Positions 11,588 through 46,538 of a DNA stretch of 64,000 nt are shown here, piece by piece. This DNA is from Lachnospiraceae bacterium (GTDB taxonomy: Bacteria > Bacillota > Clostridia > Lachnospirales > Lachnospiraceae), in NCBI GenBank assembly GCA_028721415.1, contig JAQYIU010000087.1, positions 1-64,000 of the forward strand, read 5' to 3'. The position numbers and the translations under genes are program-made. The notes below the pieces were generated by a model. The model ran no database searches and was not told where the DNA came from. It saw only the letters and a list, made by a program, of their open reading frames with translations. Each line of letters starts with the position of its first letter. The stretch's first letter is position 1.

Positions 11588-11657
11588 AATATGAAACTCC
11601 TCAATATACTCTATCTCAGTTTATGCATGATTTATGGATGAGTTCGTATTATTTCAT

Positions 11658-36088: not shown

Positions 36089-38386
36089 TTATTGTCTCAA
36101 AATCCGAATAGAGTTAATAAGACAAAATACAGAAACTCCTGTATCAGCAAAGACGGCAAGCCACATATTTGCAAATCCAAACAGACCGAGAATCATGACG
36201 ATAACTTTAACCACAAGAGCAAAGACTACATTCTGCCAGGAAATATTTCTGGTCATTTTTGCAATACGTAACGCTTCCGGGATTGCTTTCATTTCTGAAT
36301 ACATAAACACAACGTCCGCTGCCTCAATTGCCGCATCTGCTCCGCTTCCCATTGCTGCTCCGATATCTGCTCCCGCCAGCACCGGGGCATCGTTAATTCC
36401 ATCCCCAACAAACATGACCGGTCCATATTGTCTGCGAACATCCTGTAATCTGGATAATTTATCTTCCGGCAGAAGTTTCGCATGTACTTCATCAATTCCG
36501 GTTTCTGATGCCACCTGCTCTGCATTCTCTTTTGCATCTCCGGTGAGCATTACCGTCATAATTCCCAGCTTTTTAACCGCTTCAACAGACTGCTTCGCAT
36601 CTTCTTTTATGGTATCCGCAATCATGATATATCCAATCCACTGACCATTAAATGCAACCAGCACTTCTGTTCCAAATTTATCTTTATGATATCGGCTGAG
36701 ATCTATATGGTATCGTTCCATCAGCTTACGATTTCCGCAAAATACCGTTCCCTGTTCCAATTGGGCACAAATTCCATGACCAACTATTTCTTCCACACTG
36801 GCAGGTCTTTCTATCTCCAGATTTTTTCTCCGGGCAGCCTCCACAATGCTGTTTCCAATTGGATGAGTGGATGATAATTCACAACTTGCACTCAATGCCA
36901 ATATTTCATCTGCAGAAATCGTGTCAGATACTGAATACACTTCCTGAACCACAAAATCTCCTTTAGTAACTGTACCGGTTTTGTCCAGCACCACAGCCTT
37001 TACATTCTTTAACGCTTCAATGACAATGCCGCCTTTAAACAGAATTCCTTTCTTTGAACCAGCTCCAATTCCTGCAAAAAATGCCAGTGGCACCGATAAA
37101 ACCAAGGCGCATGGACAACTGATAACCAGGAAAGTAAGTGCTGTATATAAGGAAGAGTGTGAGACATCTCCATCCAATATCCAGAAATGCCATCCAGGGA
37201 AAATTATTGGAAGTATAATTGCAATCGCCAGTGCAAAAAATACCACGAATGGTGTATACACACGGGCAAATTTTGTAATAAATTTATCAATCTCAGGCTT
37301 ACTTGCTGCAGCATTTTCCACTGAATCTAAGATTTTGGTCACCATGGATTCTTCCAAGGCTTTTTCTACCCGAATTTTCAACTGACCTGAGGTATTGACA
37401 CACCCTGAAATCACAGCATCACCAGGTTTCACCATCACTGGAACCGGTTCTCCAGTGACCGGAGAAGTATCAATTCTGCTCTCTCCTTCTACAATTACAC
37501 TATCCAGAGGAATCCGGTCTCCAGGGCGAACCAGCAGAATATCACCTACTCTGGCATCTTCTGCATCGATCACCCGGATTTCTTCACCAACAACGTGATT
37601 GACAACCTCCGGCCGAAGATCCACTGCTTCCATAATCTGCGAACGACTCTGTTCCGTCGCCCGATGTTCAAAATATTCTCCGATACGATAAAATAACATT
37701 ACCCCGACAGCTTCCGGAAACATTCGTATGATAAATGCTCCAATTGTTGCCAGACACATCAGAAAGTTTTCATCAAAAATCTGCCCTTTCATGATATTCT
37801 TTCCAGCATCCAGGAGAACTTCTCCACCAAGGATCAGATAAGCAATCAGAAATAACGGCAACATTCTGAAATCCTGCTCGGAAATTCCCATCAGATTAAT
37901 GATAAACTCTCCTGCTATAAACAACAGCAGCCCTGTCCCGATAGAAAACAATGGTTGTTTCCATACTGGAACCGTCTCCTCAACCTGTACCTGCTTTCTC
38001 TTTTGTTTCTTCTCCAACACCTTAATTCCATCTTCCACTGAATCCGCAATCTCCTGAATCTTTACCTGAAGCTGATCTGGATGTTCGGAAGAAAGTCTTA
38101 ACTGTCTTGTCGCAAATGTCAAAGAAACCGATTTCACTTCCGGCAACTGTCTGATCTTTGCTTCAATTTTGGCAGCACAATTAACACAATCCAAGCCTTC
38201 TAAGACAAATACTATTTTCTCTGATCCGTCATCTGTTATTTCCAGTTCGGGATCAAATGGGATATCCTCATGCAGATGATGTTCATGATCGCAACAACAG
38301 CTCTCTTCGTGATGATGTTCATGATCATGGTGATGCTCATGTCCGCAGCAACAACTCTCTTCGTGATGATATTCTTTTTTTGACAT
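36089..38386 (-). CDS. Heavy-metal (Zn/Cd/Pb) translocating P1B-type ATPase with His/Cys-rich N-terminus
   Basis: DKTGTVTKGD, ISCPCALVLSVP, GDGINDAPVLAGADIGAAMG, GLDCVNCAAKIEA. Confidence 0.95.
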   Translation of the reverse strand: MSKKEYHHEESCCCGHEHHHDHEHHHEESCCCDHEHHLHEDIPFDPELEITDDGSEKIVFVLEGLDCVNCAAKIEAKIRQLPEVKSVSLTFATRQLRLSSEHPDQLQVKIQEIADSVEDGIKVLEKKQKRKQVQVEETVPVWKQPLFSIGTGLLLFIAGEFIINLMGISEQDFRMLPLFLIAYLILGGEVLLDAGKNIMKGQIFDENFLMCLATIGAFIIRMFPEAVGVMLFYRIGEYFEHRATEQSRSQIMEAVDLRPEVVNHVVGEEIRVIDAEDARVGDILLVRPGDRIPLDSVIVEGESRIDTSPVTGEPVPVMVKPGDAVISGCVNTSGQLKIRVEKALEESMVTKILDSVENAAASKPEIDKFITKFARVYTPFVVFFALAIAIILPIIFPGWHFWILDGDVSHSSLYTALTFLVISCPCALVLSVPLAFFAGIGAGSKKGILFKGGIVIEALKNVKAVVLDKTGTVTKGDFVVQEVYSVSDTISADEILALSASCELSSTHPIGNSIVEAARRKNLEIERPASVEEIVGHGICAQLEQGTVFCGNRKLMERYHIDLSRYHKDKFGTEVLVAFNGQWIGYIMIADTIKEDAKQSVEAVKKLGIMTVMLTGDAKENAEQVASETGIDEVHAKLLPEDKLSRLQDVRRQYGPVMFVGDGINDAPVLAGADIGAAMGSGADAAIEAADVVFMYSEMKAIPEALRIAKMTRNISWQNVVFALVVKVIVMILGLFGFANMWLAVFADTGVSVFCLINSIRILRQ

Positions 38387-38455
38387 AGGTTATGATTCCT
38401 TTCTTTTTCATCACTGATGCTGAACAAAATCGTTATTCTTCCTTTTCTTCCTGAT

Positions 38456-38830
38456 TTATGCGTCCGGATATTCCAATTGATGATGGGCCATATGCACCAG
38501 GGCCTCTTCAAGAATATCAACAATATGTTCATCATCTAATGAGTAAAATACATTTTTCCCTTCTCTCCTTGACTTGATCTGATGCATATTCCGCATCACA
38601 GCCAGCTGATGGGACACAGCCGACTTCGTCATATCAAGTAATACCGCAATATCTCCTGCACACATCTCCTGTTCTTTTAACGCATATAAAATCCGCAGGC
38701 GGGTTTTATCACCAAGAACTTTATAAAAAGATACAACCTGATCTACCTCCTGATCTTTTGGCATGTTTTTCCTCACCTGTTCAATGCTTTCCAAAAACAT
38801 TGGTGTACAGTCGCTTTTTTTCGTTGCCAT
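38456..38830 (-). CDS. ArsR/SmtB-family metal-responsive repressor
   Basis: LGDKTRLRILYALKEQEMCAGDIAVLLDMTKSAVSHQLAVMR. Confidence 0.92.
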   Translation of the reverse strand: MATKKSDCTPMFLESIEQVRKNMPKDQEVDQVVSFYKVLGDKTRLRILYALKEQEMCAGDIAVLLDMTKSAVSHQLAVMRNMHQIKSRREGKNVFYSLDDEHIVDILEEALVHMAHHQLEYPDA

Positions 38831-38861
38831 AACTTCCTCCAATCGTCTCGCTTCCAGACAA

Positions 38862-39818: not shown

Positions 39819-39988
39819 TTTTGTTCCTCCTCCCATTTACCACTCGATTCTATTTATTTGTACCATCATACCACATTTTATCTTAGTTGTCTGCCTGACT
39901 CATTCGTGCTATCATATAGAAAATGTCACTTAATAATCCACTACGTGATTTACGATTAAAATATCATAATAATATAGAGGTTTCTGTT

Positions 39989-41023
39989 ATGAAAAACAAA
40001 CTGGAATTATATGGAACTCTGGGACCGGCAGATTGTTCCAAAGATATATTAAAAGAAATGCTCCGATCAGGAATGACCGGAATCCGCATTAATCTTTCCC
40101 ATACCAATTTGAGAGACTGTGAGTCATGGCTTCAGAATTTATATGAAGTATCGGAAGAACTTCATATGATTCCGGATCTCCTGGCCGATCTTCAGGGACC
40201 GGAGCTTCGCATAGGAATCCTTTCTGAACCACTTCAATTAGAAACAGGTTCTACCGTTAAACTGATTGACAGTTCAGATTATTCCCAAATATCCTCTTCT
40301 GATTCTGGAATTCCCGTTCCATATCTATTGTTATCTCATTTAAAAAACGCCCAGACAATTCGTCTGGACGATGGAAAAATCATATTAGAAGTGACGGATT
40401 CTGCCAATGCACTTGCTACCGTTGTATCCGGCGGTACTTTAACCTCACGAAAAAGTCTCGCCATTGACGGACTTTCCCTGGAATTGCCCACTTTGACAGA
40501 TCAGGATCTTCACAATCTGGATGTGCTGGCCAGATACCGTGTTACGGGAGTCATGCTGCCATTTGTCAGAGGCAAAGACGATCTCCTGAATCTGAAAAAG
40601 GAATTACTGAAACGAAAACTCACACACGTTCGCATTTTTGCAAAAATCGAAAATCAGGCAGGGGTTGACAATCTTCCCGAACTTATTCCCCACTGTGACC
40701 AGATTGTCATTGCCAGAGGAGATTTGGGAAATGCCATTCCTCTTCCTGCGCTTCCCGCTATTCAAAAAAAGATTGCTTTGTTATGTAAAAGAACAAAAAC
40801 ACCTTTTATGGTAGTCACTCAACTTCTTGCATCCATGGAAGAACATCCTTCTCCAACCCGGGCAGAAGTCAGTGATATTTTCAATGCCGTTCTGGATGGG
40901 GCATCCTCGCTAATGTTAACCGGAGAAACTGCTGTTGGCAAATATCCGGCAAAAGCCATAAAAATCTTGTCCGACACTGCATTTGAAGGACTTCGCTTCA
41001 AAATGGAATCCCGATTTCTCTAA
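39989..41023 (+). CDS. Short pyruvate kinase-like protein (344 aa, no C-terminal domain)
   Basis: GTLGPADCSKDILKEMLRSGMTGIRINLSH, FAKIENQ, IARGDLGNAIP, HPSPTRAEVSDIFNAVLDGASSLMLTGETAVGKYP. Confidence 0.85.
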   Translation: MKNKLELYGTLGPADCSKDILKEMLRSGMTGIRINLSHTNLRDCESWLQNLYEVSEELHMIPDLLADLQGPELRIGILSEPLQLETGSTVKLIDSSDYSQISSSDSGIPVPYLLLSHLKNAQTIRLDDGKIILEVTDSANALATVVSGGTLTSRKSLAIDGLSLELPTLTDQDLHNLDVLARYRVTGVMLPFVRGKDDLLNLKKELLKRKLTHVRIFAKIENQAGVDNLPELIPHCDQIVIARGDLGNAIPLPALPAIQKKIALLCKRTKTPFMVVTQLLASMEEHPSPTRAEVSDIFNAVLDGASSLMLTGETAVGKYPAKAIKILSDTAFEGLRFKMESRFL

Positions 41024-41213: not shown

Positions 41214-42074
41214 TTAAAACTTAAGACGTTTTGTTACGGCTGCCCCCATACCTCCCGGTCCGATATGGCAGGTGAGATTCAGAGGAAGATCATCATATTC
41301 TACCTGAAATCCCGGAAAATGTTCTTCGAGATCACGAACCCACTGTTCTTTTCCCTCATAGCCGTAAGAACAGGCCGCCTGAAGACGCACATCTTCTGGT
41401 GCAGAGACACCCATTCTCTCCATCTCCTGCTCCAATGCCTTAAAAATCGTCTGCTTACCTTTTGCCATACTTCTTACTTTCGCGTAAGCATCCAGTTGTT
41501 TCCCATGAATCTGTAATATCGGTTTAATACGGAGAACGGTACCGATCGCTGCCGCTGCAGGAGTAATTCTTCCCCCTTTTTTTAGATGTTTTAAGGTCTC
41601 TACCATAACATATATGGAAGAATTCTGTTGTTCATTTTCTAAAATTTCTTTAATCTCCTGTGCTGTTTTACCTTCTTTTACCAGATTAACGGCATCTTCC
41701 ACGGAAGCTCTCTGCGGTACCGAAACTCTCTGGGCATCCACCACCTGCACTTTCCCGTCATAGTCCTGGGCATAAGTAAACGCATTGGCGCAACTGCCGG
41801 AAAGACCGCTGGAAATCGGAATGTGAATAATCTCATCATATTCTTCCAACAGCTTATCCCACAGATCCATCACCTCACCTGCAGCAGGCTGGGAAGTGGA
41901 AATGTCTGCGTCAGAATTTAGTTTCTCATAAAATTCTTCTTTACTTAAATTGACACCTTCCAGATATTCCACTCCATCAATGGTAAATGGCATGGGAATC
42001 ACAAAAACACCGAGTTTTTCGGCTGCTTCCATGGTAATTCCAGAAGTATCTGTCACAATGGCAACCTTTTTCAT
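41214..42074 (-). CDS. DegV family (fatty-acid binding) protein
   Basis: KVAIVTDTSGI, DISTSQPAAGEV, ISSGLSGS, VMVETLKHLKKGGRI. Confidence 0.93.
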   Translation of the reverse strand: MKKVAIVTDTSGITMEAAEKLGVFVIPMPFTIDGVEYLEGVNLSKEEFYEKLNSDADISTSQPAAGEVMDLWDKLLEEYDEIIHIPISSGLSGSCANAFTYAQDYDGKVQVVDAQRVSVPQRASVEDAVNLVKEGKTAQEIKEILENEQQNSSIYVMVETLKHLKKGGRITPAAAAIGTVLRIKPILQIHGKQLDAYAKVRSMAKGKQTIFKALEQEMERMGVSAPEDVRLQAACSYGYEGKEQWVRDLEEHFPGFQVEYDDLPLNLTCHIGPGGMGAAVTKRLKF

Positions 42075-42254
42075 ACAATCTCCTCCATTTGTTTTTTTGT
42101 TATAATTTATCCGTCTGTATCTATATTTCGTTTCTTTTACACTCAAATTATTTTAATTACTGAGCATTATTACTATATTATACAGGGTTTAGTTTTTTGT
42201 CAAACCTTTTTTGAAATAGAGGTTGTCCAACCAAATGAAGCAATGTCAGATGGT

Positions 42255-42618
42255 TTACTCTTTGGAAATAATGTGATATGGAAGTGCCACAAATATGACT
42301 CCGCCAATCATATTTCCAATGGTTGCCATCACAATCACGTAAATATACTGGCTTATTGTTACCCCACCATTTAACAAGGCAACAAATACAATGCTCATAT
42401 CTGCGATACTATGTTCAAATCCACATATCATAAATACAAGAATACACCAGAAAATCATGATCAGTTTTCCGGATTCTGATTTTAATTTAATGCTGCACCA
42501 CACCGCAAGACATACCAGAATATTACAGAGGATTGCTCTGAACAGAAAATTTACAGGATAGAAAGTTACTTTTTCCCGCACCTGCGTTGCATACTGCCTG
42601 ATACTCATCTTTAAACAT
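42255..42618 (-). pseudogene. Formate/nitrite transporter (FNT) remnant with internal deletion and frameshift
   Basis: RBS AGGAGG (42627-42632) and start MFKDEYQAVCNAGAGK in one frame; C-terminal half KVTFYPVNFLFRAILCNILVCLAVW...GFEHSIADM in another; first TM helices missing. Confidence 0.75.
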
Positions 42619-42700
42619 AATCATATCCTCCTAAGATAAAAAATGTGTATTGCCCTTTCCCCATCTCATGATATTTCATTGATTAAAACCACATTTAGAT

Positions 42701-42808
42701 GAAAAAAGAGCAACATTTGAATTCAACAAATGCTGCCCAGACGGTCGGCTTACTTTCTAATCTGATTCCCCTGTGGTACTCCACACTTAACCCGTCAGTA
42801 ATCAGATT
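42701..42808 (-). ncRNA. ZTP (pfl) riboswitch aptamer (about 42734-42808) with downstream terminator (42701-42735)
   Basis: AATCTGATTACTGACGGG..GTGTGGAGTACCACAGGGGAATCAGATT (P1 pairing) ..GCCGACCGTCTGGGC (P3) ..AGCATTTG..CAAATGTTGCTCTTTTTT. Confidence 0.82.
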
Positions 42809-42935
42809 TTTAAATTATATAGTATACACTATCACGTTCGCTTCATTTTGTCAATTTATTGGGTATTTTTCCCAGTTTTTTTGATGCATATTTTTCTTTT
42901 CACCGCATTTCTTCCTCCTTTTTGTGGACTTCATT

Positions 42936-42963: not shown

Positions 42964-43022
42964 TCATTTTCTCGCTTTAAATAGGGAAAATGTGTATTTG
43001 ATGAATGAACGGAGGTAATACA

Positions 43023-43502
43023 ATGAGTAATCAAGTTTGGAAATTCCATAACGATGTGGATACGGATCAGATCATTGCTTCTCAGTATCTGCTCTTACCT
43101 GATATTGAATCTATGAAACAATACACATTCGAATCTCTGGATCCGACCTTTGCCGATAAGGTACATCCCGGTGATATCGTGGTTGCCGGAGAGAATTTTG
43201 GATGTGGTTCTTCCAGAGAACAGGCACCTAGTTTTCTGAAAGCTCTCGGTGTTCAGGCTGTCATTGCTATATCTTTTGCAATAATTTTCTATCGCAATTC
43301 CATCAATATCGGTCTTCCGGTAATCGTATGCAAAGATCTGTACGACAATGTGGAAGATGGCGGTGAGGCTGATCTTGATTTAACTGCAGGTACTGTAACT
43401 GCCAACGGTAAGACATTTACCTGCACGAAACTGCCGGAATACATGCAGAATATTTTATCTGCCGGAGGCTTAATTTCATTTTTAAATAAGGAGGAAGCAT
43501 AA
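43023..43502 (+). CDS. LeuD/HacB-type dehydratase small subunit (copy 1)
   Basis: DVDTDQIIASQYLLLP, GENFGCGSSREQAP. Confidence 0.92.
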   Translation: MSNQVWKFHNDVDTDQIIASQYLLLPDIESMKQYTFESLDPTFADKVHPGDIVVAGENFGCGSSREQAPSFLKALGVQAVIAISFAIIFYRNSINIGLPVIVCKDLYDNVEDGGEADLDLTAGTVTANGKTFTCTKLPEYMQNILSAGGLISFLNKEEA

Positions 43503-43504
43503 TC

Positions 43505-44761
43505 ATGAGTATGACCTTAGGGGAAAAAATTATTGCTAGAGCAGCCGGTGTCGATTCCGTAAAACCAAATGATATCCACACCGTCACTCTGGATCGCATG
43601 ATGAGTAACGATGGTACCACCCATCTGACTGTAGATATGTATCATAATAAATTAAAGCATCCGCAGATTGCTGATAAAGATAAAGTTGTGTTCATCATGG
43701 ATCATAACGTTCCTGCCGAGAATCCAAAAACTGCAGAGGCTCATAAAAAAATGCGTAATTTTGCCAGTGAAAATGGCATTAAATTATATGAAGGTCAGGG
43801 TATTTGTCATCAGATTATGATGGAAGACTATGTCTGCCCTGGTGAACTTATTTTCGGTGCAGATTCCCACACAACTACCTATGGTGCTCTGGGTGCTTTC
43901 GGAACCGGTGTCGGATGTACGGATTTTCTCTATGCAATGACTACCGGTACTTCCTGGGTCATGGTTCCGGAAACCATCCGTTTTAATCTTCACGGTTCTC
44001 TTCGGGAAGGTGTATATGCCAGAGATCTTATCCTGACCATTATCGGTGATATCGGAGCGAACGGTGCCAACTATAAAATTATGGAATTTTCGGGCGACGG
44101 CGCGCACAACCTTTCCATTGACGAGCGTATCGTGCTCTGTAATCTTACTGTAGAAGCAGGTGCCAAAGCAGGTATCGTGGAACCGGATGAAAAGGTAGTG
44201 GAATACTGTAAAGCTCACGGCCGCGAGGCAGTACATATGTTTAAGAGTGATGAGGATGCTACCTTTGCCGCAGTATACGATTATGATTTAAGCAAGATTG
44301 AACCGGTGGTTGTCCGTCCGGATTTCGTTGATAATTTTGCCCTTTTAAAAGATGTCAAAGAAGAAAAAATCACCATTGATGAAGCTTTCCTCGGTTCCTG
44401 CAACAATGGTCGTCTGGTGGATCTGAGAGCTGCCGCTGAGGTGGTAAAAGGAAAGAAAATTCATCCAAATGTTCGTTTTATCGTCGCTCCTGCCTCCAAA
44501 GCCGTTTACATTGAAGCATTAAAAGAAGGCATCATCACCACACTGATGGAAGCTGGTGCCATGATCATGAACTGTAACTGTTCTGTCTGCTGGGGAAGCT
44601 GCCAGGGTGTCATCGGAGAAAATGAAGTGCTGATTTCCACCGGAACAAGAAACTTTAAAGGCCGTGCCGGACATCCAACTTCCAAAGTATATATGGCCAG
44701 CGCCGCCACTGTGGCTGCTTCTGCCGTAGCCGGCTATATCACCGGAAATACTGCCGAATAA
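43505..44761 (+). CDS. LeuC/HacA-type dehydratase large subunit (copy 1)
   Basis: GADSHTTTYGALGAFGTGVG, GSCNNGRLVDL, NCNCSVCWG [4Fe-4S] ligands. Confidence 0.93.
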   Translation: MSMTLGEKIIARAAGVDSVKPNDIHTVTLDRMMSNDGTTHLTVDMYHNKLKHPQIADKDKVVFIMDHNVPAENPKTAEAHKKMRNFASENGIKLYEGQGICHQIMMEDYVCPGELIFGADSHTTTYGALGAFGTGVGCTDFLYAMTTGTSWVMVPETIRFNLHGSLREGVYARDLILTIIGDIGANGANYKIMEFSGDGAHNLSIDERIVLCNLTVEAGAKAGIVEPDEKVVEYCKAHGREAVHMFKSDEDATFAAVYDYDLSKIEPVVVRPDFVDNFALLKDVKEEKITIDEAFLGSCNNGRLVDLRAAAEVVKGKKIHPNVRFIVAPASKAVYIEALKEGIITTLMEAGAMIMNCNCSVCWGSCQGVIGENEVLISTGTRNFKGRAGHPTSKVYMASAATVAASAVAGYITGNTAE

Positions 44762-44787
44762 ATAATTAACAGAAAGGATAGCTTACT

Positions 44788-45279
44788 ATGGAACAATTTA
44801 CTGGAAAAGTATGGGTTCTCGGTGATGATATCGATACAGATATCATCATTCCGACAGAATATCTTGCCCTGCCTACCGTAGAAGATATGAAACAATATGG
44901 TTTTTCTCCACTTCGTCCTGAACTGGCTTCTCAGATTCAGGAAGGAGATATTATCGTTGCCGGAAAGAATTTCGGCTGCGGCTCTTCCAGAGAGCAGGCG
45001 CCTGAAATCATCAAGGCATTAAAAGTAAAATGCGTTATCGCAAAATCCTATGCCCGCATTTTCTTCCGCAATTCTATCAATAACGGACTTCTGCTCATTG
45101 AAAATGATGAAATTCAGGATGTTGTAAAAGAGGGAGATACTATCACAGTTAAAATGGGGGAATCCATCGAATTTGATGGCAAATCCTATGGTATCACTTC
45201 TCTTCCGGATAATCTCATGGATATCATCAATGCCGGTGGTCTTGTAAAGGCAATGCAGAAAAGAAACGGGATTATATAG
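44788..45279 (+). CDS. LeuD/HacB-type dehydratase small subunit (copy 2)
   Basis: DIDTDIIIPTEYLALP, GKNFGCGSSREQAPE. Confidence 0.93.
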   Translation: MEQFTGKVWVLGDDIDTDIIIPTEYLALPTVEDMKQYGFSPLRPELASQIQEGDIIVAGKNFGCGSSREQAPEIIKALKVKCVIAKSYARIFFRNSINNGLLLIENDEIQDVVKEGDTITVKMGESIEFDGKSYGITSLPDNLMDIINAGGLVKAMQKRNGII

Positions 45280-45290
45280 GAGGATTTGAC

Positions 45291-46538
45291 ATGGGTTATA
45301 CATTAATTGAAAAAATCATCAAAAAAAATATCGGGGCAGATCATGTGGAACCGGGACAGATTGTCACTGTCAACGTCGATCGTGTGATGATTCACGATAT
45401 TTTCATTCCTTTTGTCGCAGATAAATTTGAAGAAATGGGATTTAAAAAATTATGGGATCTGGACAAAGTCGTTCTGATTTACGATCATCTGGTTCCGGCC
45501 AGTGCCGTAGAAGATATCCGTCATTTTAAAATCGGAGACGCTTTTGCCGAAAAATATGGTCTTACCCACGTCCACAGAAGTGACGGAATCTGCCATCAGT
45601 TAATGACAGAAGCCGGATATGCCAAACCAGGTAATGTTGTATTCGGAACTGACTCTCACACCACCACTTACGGATGTGTCGGCTGTTTCTCTTCCGGAAT
45701 CGGATATACGGAAATGGCTTCCATTCTCGGAACCGGTGAAATGTGGATTCGTGTGCCGGAAACCATCAAGGTGATTATCAACGGCGAACTTCCTGCCAAC
45801 GTCACTGCCAAAGATGTGATTCTTCGTCTGATTGGAGATCTCCGTGCCGATGGAGCCACATACAAAGCATTAGAAATCAGCGGTTCTACTGTAGACAACA
45901 TGTCGGTTGCATCCCGCATGACCATCTCCAATATGGCAATCGAAGCGGGCGCCAAAGCATGTCTGTTTAAACCGGATGAAAAAACCTGCGAATACTCCAA
46001 GGTAAATCTTTCCGATGTCGACTGGATTTACGGAGATGAAGATGCTAATTATTGTAAGGTCATGACCTATCAGGCAGAAGACCTGGTTCCTGTCTGTGCC
46101 TGTCCTTCTCAGGTTGACAATATTCATCCGGTCTCCGAAATTGAGGGAACAGAATTAGATCAGGTATTTATCGGTTCCTGTACCAACGGACGTCTGGAAG
46201 ACCTGGCAGTTGCAGCCAAAATTCTGGAAGGAAAGAGTGTCGCATGTAAATTGATCATCACTCCTGCCAGCAAACAGATTTATCTTGATGCTATCAAAGC
46301 CGGATATATGGAAACCCTCGCACAGGCAGGTGCCATCATCACTCAGCCAGGATGTGGACTGTGTTGTGGTCGTGCCGGAGGCATCCTCTGTGATGGAGAA
46401 AAGGTTCTCGCAACAAACAACCGGAACTTCCTGGGACGTATGGGAACTTCCAAAGTTGGCATTTATCTTGGATCCCCTGCTACAGCGGCAACCTCTGCTA
46501 TTTACGGAAAAATCACTATCCCGGAAAATGTGCATTAG
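45291..46538 (+). CDS. LeuC/HacA-type dehydratase large subunit (copy 2)
   Basis: GTDSHTTTYGCVGCFSSGIG, GSCTNGRLEDL, QPGCGLCCGR. Confidence 0.94.
   Translation: MGYTLIEKIIKKNIGADHVEPGQIVTVNVDRVMIHDIFIPFVADKFEEMGFKKLWDLDKVVLIYDHLVPASAVEDIRHFKIGDAFAEKYGLTHVHRSDGICHQLMTEAGYAKPGNVVFGTDSHTTTYGCVGCFSSGIGYTEMASILGTGEMWIRVPETIKVIINGELPANVTAKDVILRLIGDLRADGATYKALEISGSTVDNMSVASRMTISNMAIEAGAKACLFKPDEKTCEYSKVNLSDVDWIYGDEDANYCKVMTYQAEDLVPVCACPSQVDNIHPVSEIEGTELDQVFIGSCTNGRLEDLAVAAKILEGKSVACKLIITPASKQIYLDAIKAGYMETLAQAGAIITQPGCGLCCGRAGGILCDGEKVLATNNRNFLGRMGTSKVGIYLGSPATAATSAIYGKITIPENVH

Follow-up and report, generated by a model that had tools for sequence, protein, structure and literature searches.

The ZTP riboswitches of Thermosinus carboxydivorans and Clostridium beijerinckii both act in the ON direction (PMC7337938, PMC10085676). 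In the pfl switch of C. beijerinckii, the invading strand begins at P3 and works its way through the pseudoknot (PMC10085676). The genes named in the main-text section on pfl of Weinberg et al. do not include FNT, whereas the switch examined here stands before an FNT formate channel gene, although a broken one. This switch lies on the minus strand of a 64,000-nucleotide stretch of DNA from a Lachnospiraceae bacterium (assembly GCA_028721415.1, contig JAQYIU010000087.1), hereafter called the window. We consider it very likely that a canonical ON switch of the ZTP type came to this genome together with its FNT gene, that the gene was later broken, and that the switch is now a regulatory relic.

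The ZTP aptamer and its expression platform

Scanning the whole window with cmscan and Rfam 15, we found a match to RF01750 (ZMP-ZTP) that spans positions 1-86 of the 86 of the model, with an E-value of 7.9e-8 and a score of 62.9 bits (gathering score, 39). The initial annotation, made from the letters of the sequence, had assigned the element to the ZTP (pfl) class and had proposed this threshold as a check; the full-length match bears the assignment out. The P1 helix, the GTGG...CCAC arm, P3 and the terminator that it had named were all located in the window (Table 1), and the pseudoknot GACGG/CCGTC comes in addition to these elements.

Table 1. Positions in the window of the switch, the FNT remnant and the adjoining features.
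Feature	Position	Strand	Evidence
ZMP/ZTP riboswitch aptamer with P1, P2, P3 and pseudoknot	42728..42812	-	RF01750 score, pairs, covariation
P1, AATCTGATT/AATCAGATT	42808-42800 with 42767-42759	-	9 of 9 pairs
P2, TGTGG/CCACA	42785-42781 with 42776-42772	-	5 pairs in the window
P3, GCC/GGC	42749-42747 with 42737-42735	-	base pairing
Pseudoknot 5' strand, GACGG, junction J1/2	42792..42796	-	paired to 42740-42744 in all 29 sequences
Pseudoknot 3' strand, CCGTC, P3 loop	42740..42744	-	pairing and covariation
Intrinsic terminator, 12-bp stem GGGCAGCATTTG-loop-CAAATGTTGCTC, then TTTTTT	42708..42738	-	terminator search, pairing, fold energy
Putative promoter region of the switch: TTGACA, 14 nt, TGA, poor -10 TAGTGT	42813..42854	-	placed and read by position as in relatives
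Broken FNT start: Shine-Dalgarno AGGAGG, ATG 42618, MFKDEYQAVCNAGAGKSN..., 31 codons to stop	42523..42618	-	frame reading
C-terminal FNT half, other frame, 117 codons without stop	42255..42608	-	PF01226
Block of switch and FNT remnant, ~690 bp, absent in G002	42216..42905		comparison with nearest relative
degV promoter-like site, 10/12	42203-42175	-	promoter search; part common to G002
degV-family gene, fatty-acid-binding EDD domain, next downstream	41214..42077	-	profile matches

The structure was then assessed by covariation across 29 aligned ZTP switches of relatives. The window structure scored 0.417, compared to 0.186 ± 0.013 for shuffled alignments, and none of the 500 shuffles scored as high; when the structure was slid along the alignment, the score fell to 0.05-0.17. 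The pseudoknot and P3 were paired in 100% of the cells. At the second pair of the pseudoknot, for example, 15 rows have G-C, 13 have A-U, including that of the window, and one has G-U; the passage from G-C to A-U is a compensatory change on both sides. P2 aligned only loosely (43.8% of cells). A chance origin of the RF01750 match was ruled out by the score and E-value together with the covariation. By each testable feature, the element is a member of RF01750, and it is predicted to bind the ligand of this class. It resembles the class in its full-length match, in the presence of P1, P2, P3 and the pseudoknot, in a terminator that overlaps the 3' side and in the one-carbon/formate gene that comes next.

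The 5' arm of the terminator begins on the 3' strand of P3, with which it has bases 42735-42737 in common, so that P3 and the full terminator are mutually exclusive. The region holds three terminator-like sites, where 0.4 would be expected. In fold predictions, the energy of the terminator stem was -14.9 kcal/mol and rose to -6.0 kcal/mol when the four bases on the P3 side (GGGC) were withheld, in which case the stem also lost its contact with the U-run. Given that a P3 held by the ligand deprives the terminator of its base, an ON switch is predicted. With ZMP or ZTP bound, the pseudoknot and P3 would become more stable, and P3 would then retain the GGC bases required by the lowest pairs of the terminator. 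Lacking its base next to the U-run, the terminator would let the RNA polymerase read on; when no ligand is bound, the full terminator would form and transcription would end. On this model, the switch should be of the canonical ZTP/ZMP type, turned ON at the level of transcription termination, in the same direction as the two described switches. Unlike in the pfl switch of C. beijerinckii, its hairpin would nucleate downstream, only the base of the hairpin competing with P3. Most of the related switches compared, before FNT or fhs, show the same geometry.

The promoter of intact relatives consists of TTGACA, 14 nt, TGN and then TATATT or a similar -10 (TAAATT or TAGATT). The TAGTGT found at this place in the window appears to be a weaker match, and the promoter search found no site of 9/12 at 42813-42854.

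The broken FNT gene

After the terminator come the Shine-Dalgarno sequence and ATG 42618, and the first ~18 residues read from there match the N-terminus of intact FNTs. No full-length FNT could be read from one reading frame in the window. The remnant covers only positions 130-239 of the 240 of PF01226, or 135-239 in the match that scores 113 bits, and it reaches 106 bits with the NCBIfam FNT model TIGR00790, the cut-off of which is 232. Intact FNTs measure 253-260 aa in nearly all of the compared loci, and the remnant is short by about 130 residues, roughly 0.4 kb, in addition to a frameshift. The junction, AAAAAGTAACTT, fits the N-terminal K-S-N codons as well as the C-terminal K-V-T codons of intact relatives (in L052, the intact sites are AAAGAGTAACTT and TAAGGTAACG, respectively). 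Because the junction fits both sites, the internal deletion probably arose between short repeats.

These findings bear on the proposal of the initial annotation that the switch controls an FNT locus. The layout itself is real in related Lachnospiraceae, where the switch is placed upstream of an intact FNT; in the window it is placed upstream of a remnant (42255-42618). Present-day control of a formate channel in this genome is not supported by the sequence as assembled, in which the N-terminal half is lost, the start opens a frame of 31 codons and the C-terminal half is out of frame; the initial annotation makes no mention of this break.

When the window fragment was compared with intact FNTs, dN was 0.13-0.18 and dS 1.6-2.1 where they could be computed. 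Relaxed selection on the fragment was not seen, either by codon positions or by dN/dS; the low ratio therefore indicates that most of the divergence took place under constraint and that the break, if real, is recent. The assembly consists of 130 contigs and is 84% complete, so that the missing stretch could reflect strain variation or faulty assembly. The remnant is the only FNT found in these contigs, and another FNT could lie in the missing part of the genome.

ZTP switches and FNT genes in related bacteria

We compared the window with the 80 nearest FNT loci. In ten of them (L033, L034, L035, L036, L038, L044, L047, L050, L051 and L052), a ZTP switch lies 50-267 nt upstream of an intact FNT, and all ten switches exceed the Rfam gathering score. 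These loci belong to Blautia, Eubacterium, Oliverpabstia and other Clostridia; G454, G157, G383 and G460 are the same records as L038, L037, L035 and L047, respectively, and were counted once. Nine further loci have a ZTP switch before fhs, with FNT next, and in L057 the switch is followed by a purH-like gene. The count of switch-FNT loci is a lower bound, since many loci begin at contig ends inside fhs. A ZTP switch before an FNT formate channel is thus a real and repeated layout in related Lachnospiraceae of the gut. The direct loci share with the window the aptamer type, in most cases a GGGC-AnCATTTG terminator, and an FNT N-terminus that reads MFKDEYQAVCNAG or close to it, whereas their FNT is intact (253-256 aa) and that of the window is short by the residues given above.

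Many contigs of Blautia begin within fhs, immediately upstream of FNT (L039-L043, L045, L048, L054 and L055), and one contig of Blautia sp. An81 breaks off in an fhs gene that follows a ZTP switch (L010). Such breaks suggest a repeated fhs copy that interrupts assemblies.

Formate transport accordingly joins the genes found behind ZTP switches, in a pattern present in at least ten related loci. If the regulon is viewed as an answer to a signal of 10-formyl-THF shortage, its genes would serve to make formate (pfl), to attach it (fhs), to use it (purH) and to move it (FNT), and a ZTP switch over formate genes fits the known regulon, in which such switches turn on one-carbon and purine genes. Among the openly available papers searched, we found none on a link between ZTP switches and FNT. 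We do not claim novelty for this link, and even if unlisted it would be a modest extension, since FNT fits the existing logic of the regulon.

Within the genus of the window genome, ZTP switches precede fhs, or pfl-like and activase-like genes, the latter recognised by N-terminal sequence only. The idea that the window switch is the only one in its genome was rejected, as a second switch (L161, contig G000:C56) was found upstream of fhs at 11657. The Rfam search did not report this switch, which was detected by a family-specific model; its 34.4 bits are below the Rfam gathering score. It is of the fhs type of the genus, with a long P1-P3 linker and a short P2. Given that several switches of the genus score near or below the RF01750 cut-off, RF01750 may undercount this subtype. 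The fhs switch and its counterparts in the genus belong to the same class as the window switch and likewise have P3 at the base of the terminator, but the fhs switch differs from the window switch by its longer P1-P3 linker and its weaker match. The identity of the window switch with its platform is 83% to L036 and 80% to L033, compared to only 46.5% to the fhs switch of its own genome, which rules out the latter as its source.

FNT was found in none of the genomes of 23 other species of the genus. The nearest relative, G002, matches on both flanks (77-86%) and is missing window ~42216-42905, so that degV and the LeuD-like gene adjoin; the block is also missing in G001, where about 100 nt separate the match to degV from that to the LeuD-like gene. 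The tree of FNT C-termini places the window with L033, itself a switch-FNT locus, with support of 97/95, in a clade that includes all ten direct switch-FNT loci. The nearest switch and FNT sequences both fall outside the genus. The block probably came from another lachnospiraceous lineage and was inserted between degV and the LeuD-like gene. Acquisition is the simplest reading of its origin; strictly speaking, repeated loss in all other members of the genus would also account for it. A search of a plasmid collection for the switch-FNT block gave one distant FNT match only, and there is therefore no sign of a plasmid vehicle.

The present role of the switch

In the relatives, the ZTP switch would raise formate transport when 10-formyl-THF is short. 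In the window genome, the block would have been acquired, and ~0.4 kb would then have been lost inside FNT with a frameshift, such that the target protein would not be made. The sensor is most likely folded, perhaps still functional, and left with no useful target. The window copy would thus be a small example of a regulatory RNA that outlives the gene it controlled.

It is unlikely that the switch controls a working formate channel and that the break stems from faulty sequencing or assembly or from a minority variant. Such a channel would agree with the intact switch-FNT arrangement at ten related loci, with the good conservation of the aptamer and of most of the platform, and with a C-terminal frame of 117 codons that is free of stops and has a low dN/dS. 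However, the loss of about 0.4 kb is more than a single-base error, the junction is clean and both flanks match the genus. Moreover, repeats of about 10 bases are not long enough to mislead a normal assembler.

It is also conceivable, though quite improbable, that the switch now serves degV, read-through past the FNT remnant adding ZTP-dependent transcription to that of the degV promoter. The degV gene follows 178 nt past the remnant and has the same orientation. No terminator was found between the two, so that some read-through into degV is possible, while the intact relative L033 has terminator-like inverted repeats after FNT. Against this, degV is preceded by its own promoter-like site, partly kept in G002, which has no switch; the -10 of the switch promoter looks weak, an untranslated remnant intervenes, and degV is the controlled gene in none of the ZTP loci examined. 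The full sequence of events, in which an acquired ZTP switch lost its own gene and was captured by degV, bringing an unrelated pathway under ZTP control, is highly improbable; if true, it would represent a riboswitch taken over by a new gene after the old one decayed.

Finally, it is hardly credible that a half transporter of 117 aa, made from the inner ATG 42608, still works, for instance as a dimer of halves: its frame is open and its dN/dS low, but this ATG comes 10 nt after the start whose distance from the Shine-Dalgarno sequence is normal, half of the profile is gone, the TIGR00790 score falls far short of its cut-off as given above, and an FNT channel requires the two halves of every subunit, as in the FocA structures.

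A regulatory relic remains our preferred reading of the switch. At 43005-46538 on the plus strand lie two tandem LeuD/LeuC-like pairs of isomerase subunits (165 and 418 aa, 163 and 415 aa), a block that is kept in the genus. All are of the archaeal-type/HacAB subfamily, and none scores high enough to pass the cut-offs of the isopropylmalate dehydratase or homoaconitase equivalogs; one of the pairs may act on another substrate. A pyruvate kinase-like protein of 366 aa (39923-41023, plus strand) has the barrel domain only, the profile being covered to about position 331 of 476, without the C-terminal domain, and looks like a short paralogue. At 36089-38842 on the minus strand, a regulator of the ArsR family precedes a heavy-metal P-type ATPase whose N-terminus is rich in His, a usual pair for metal efflux.
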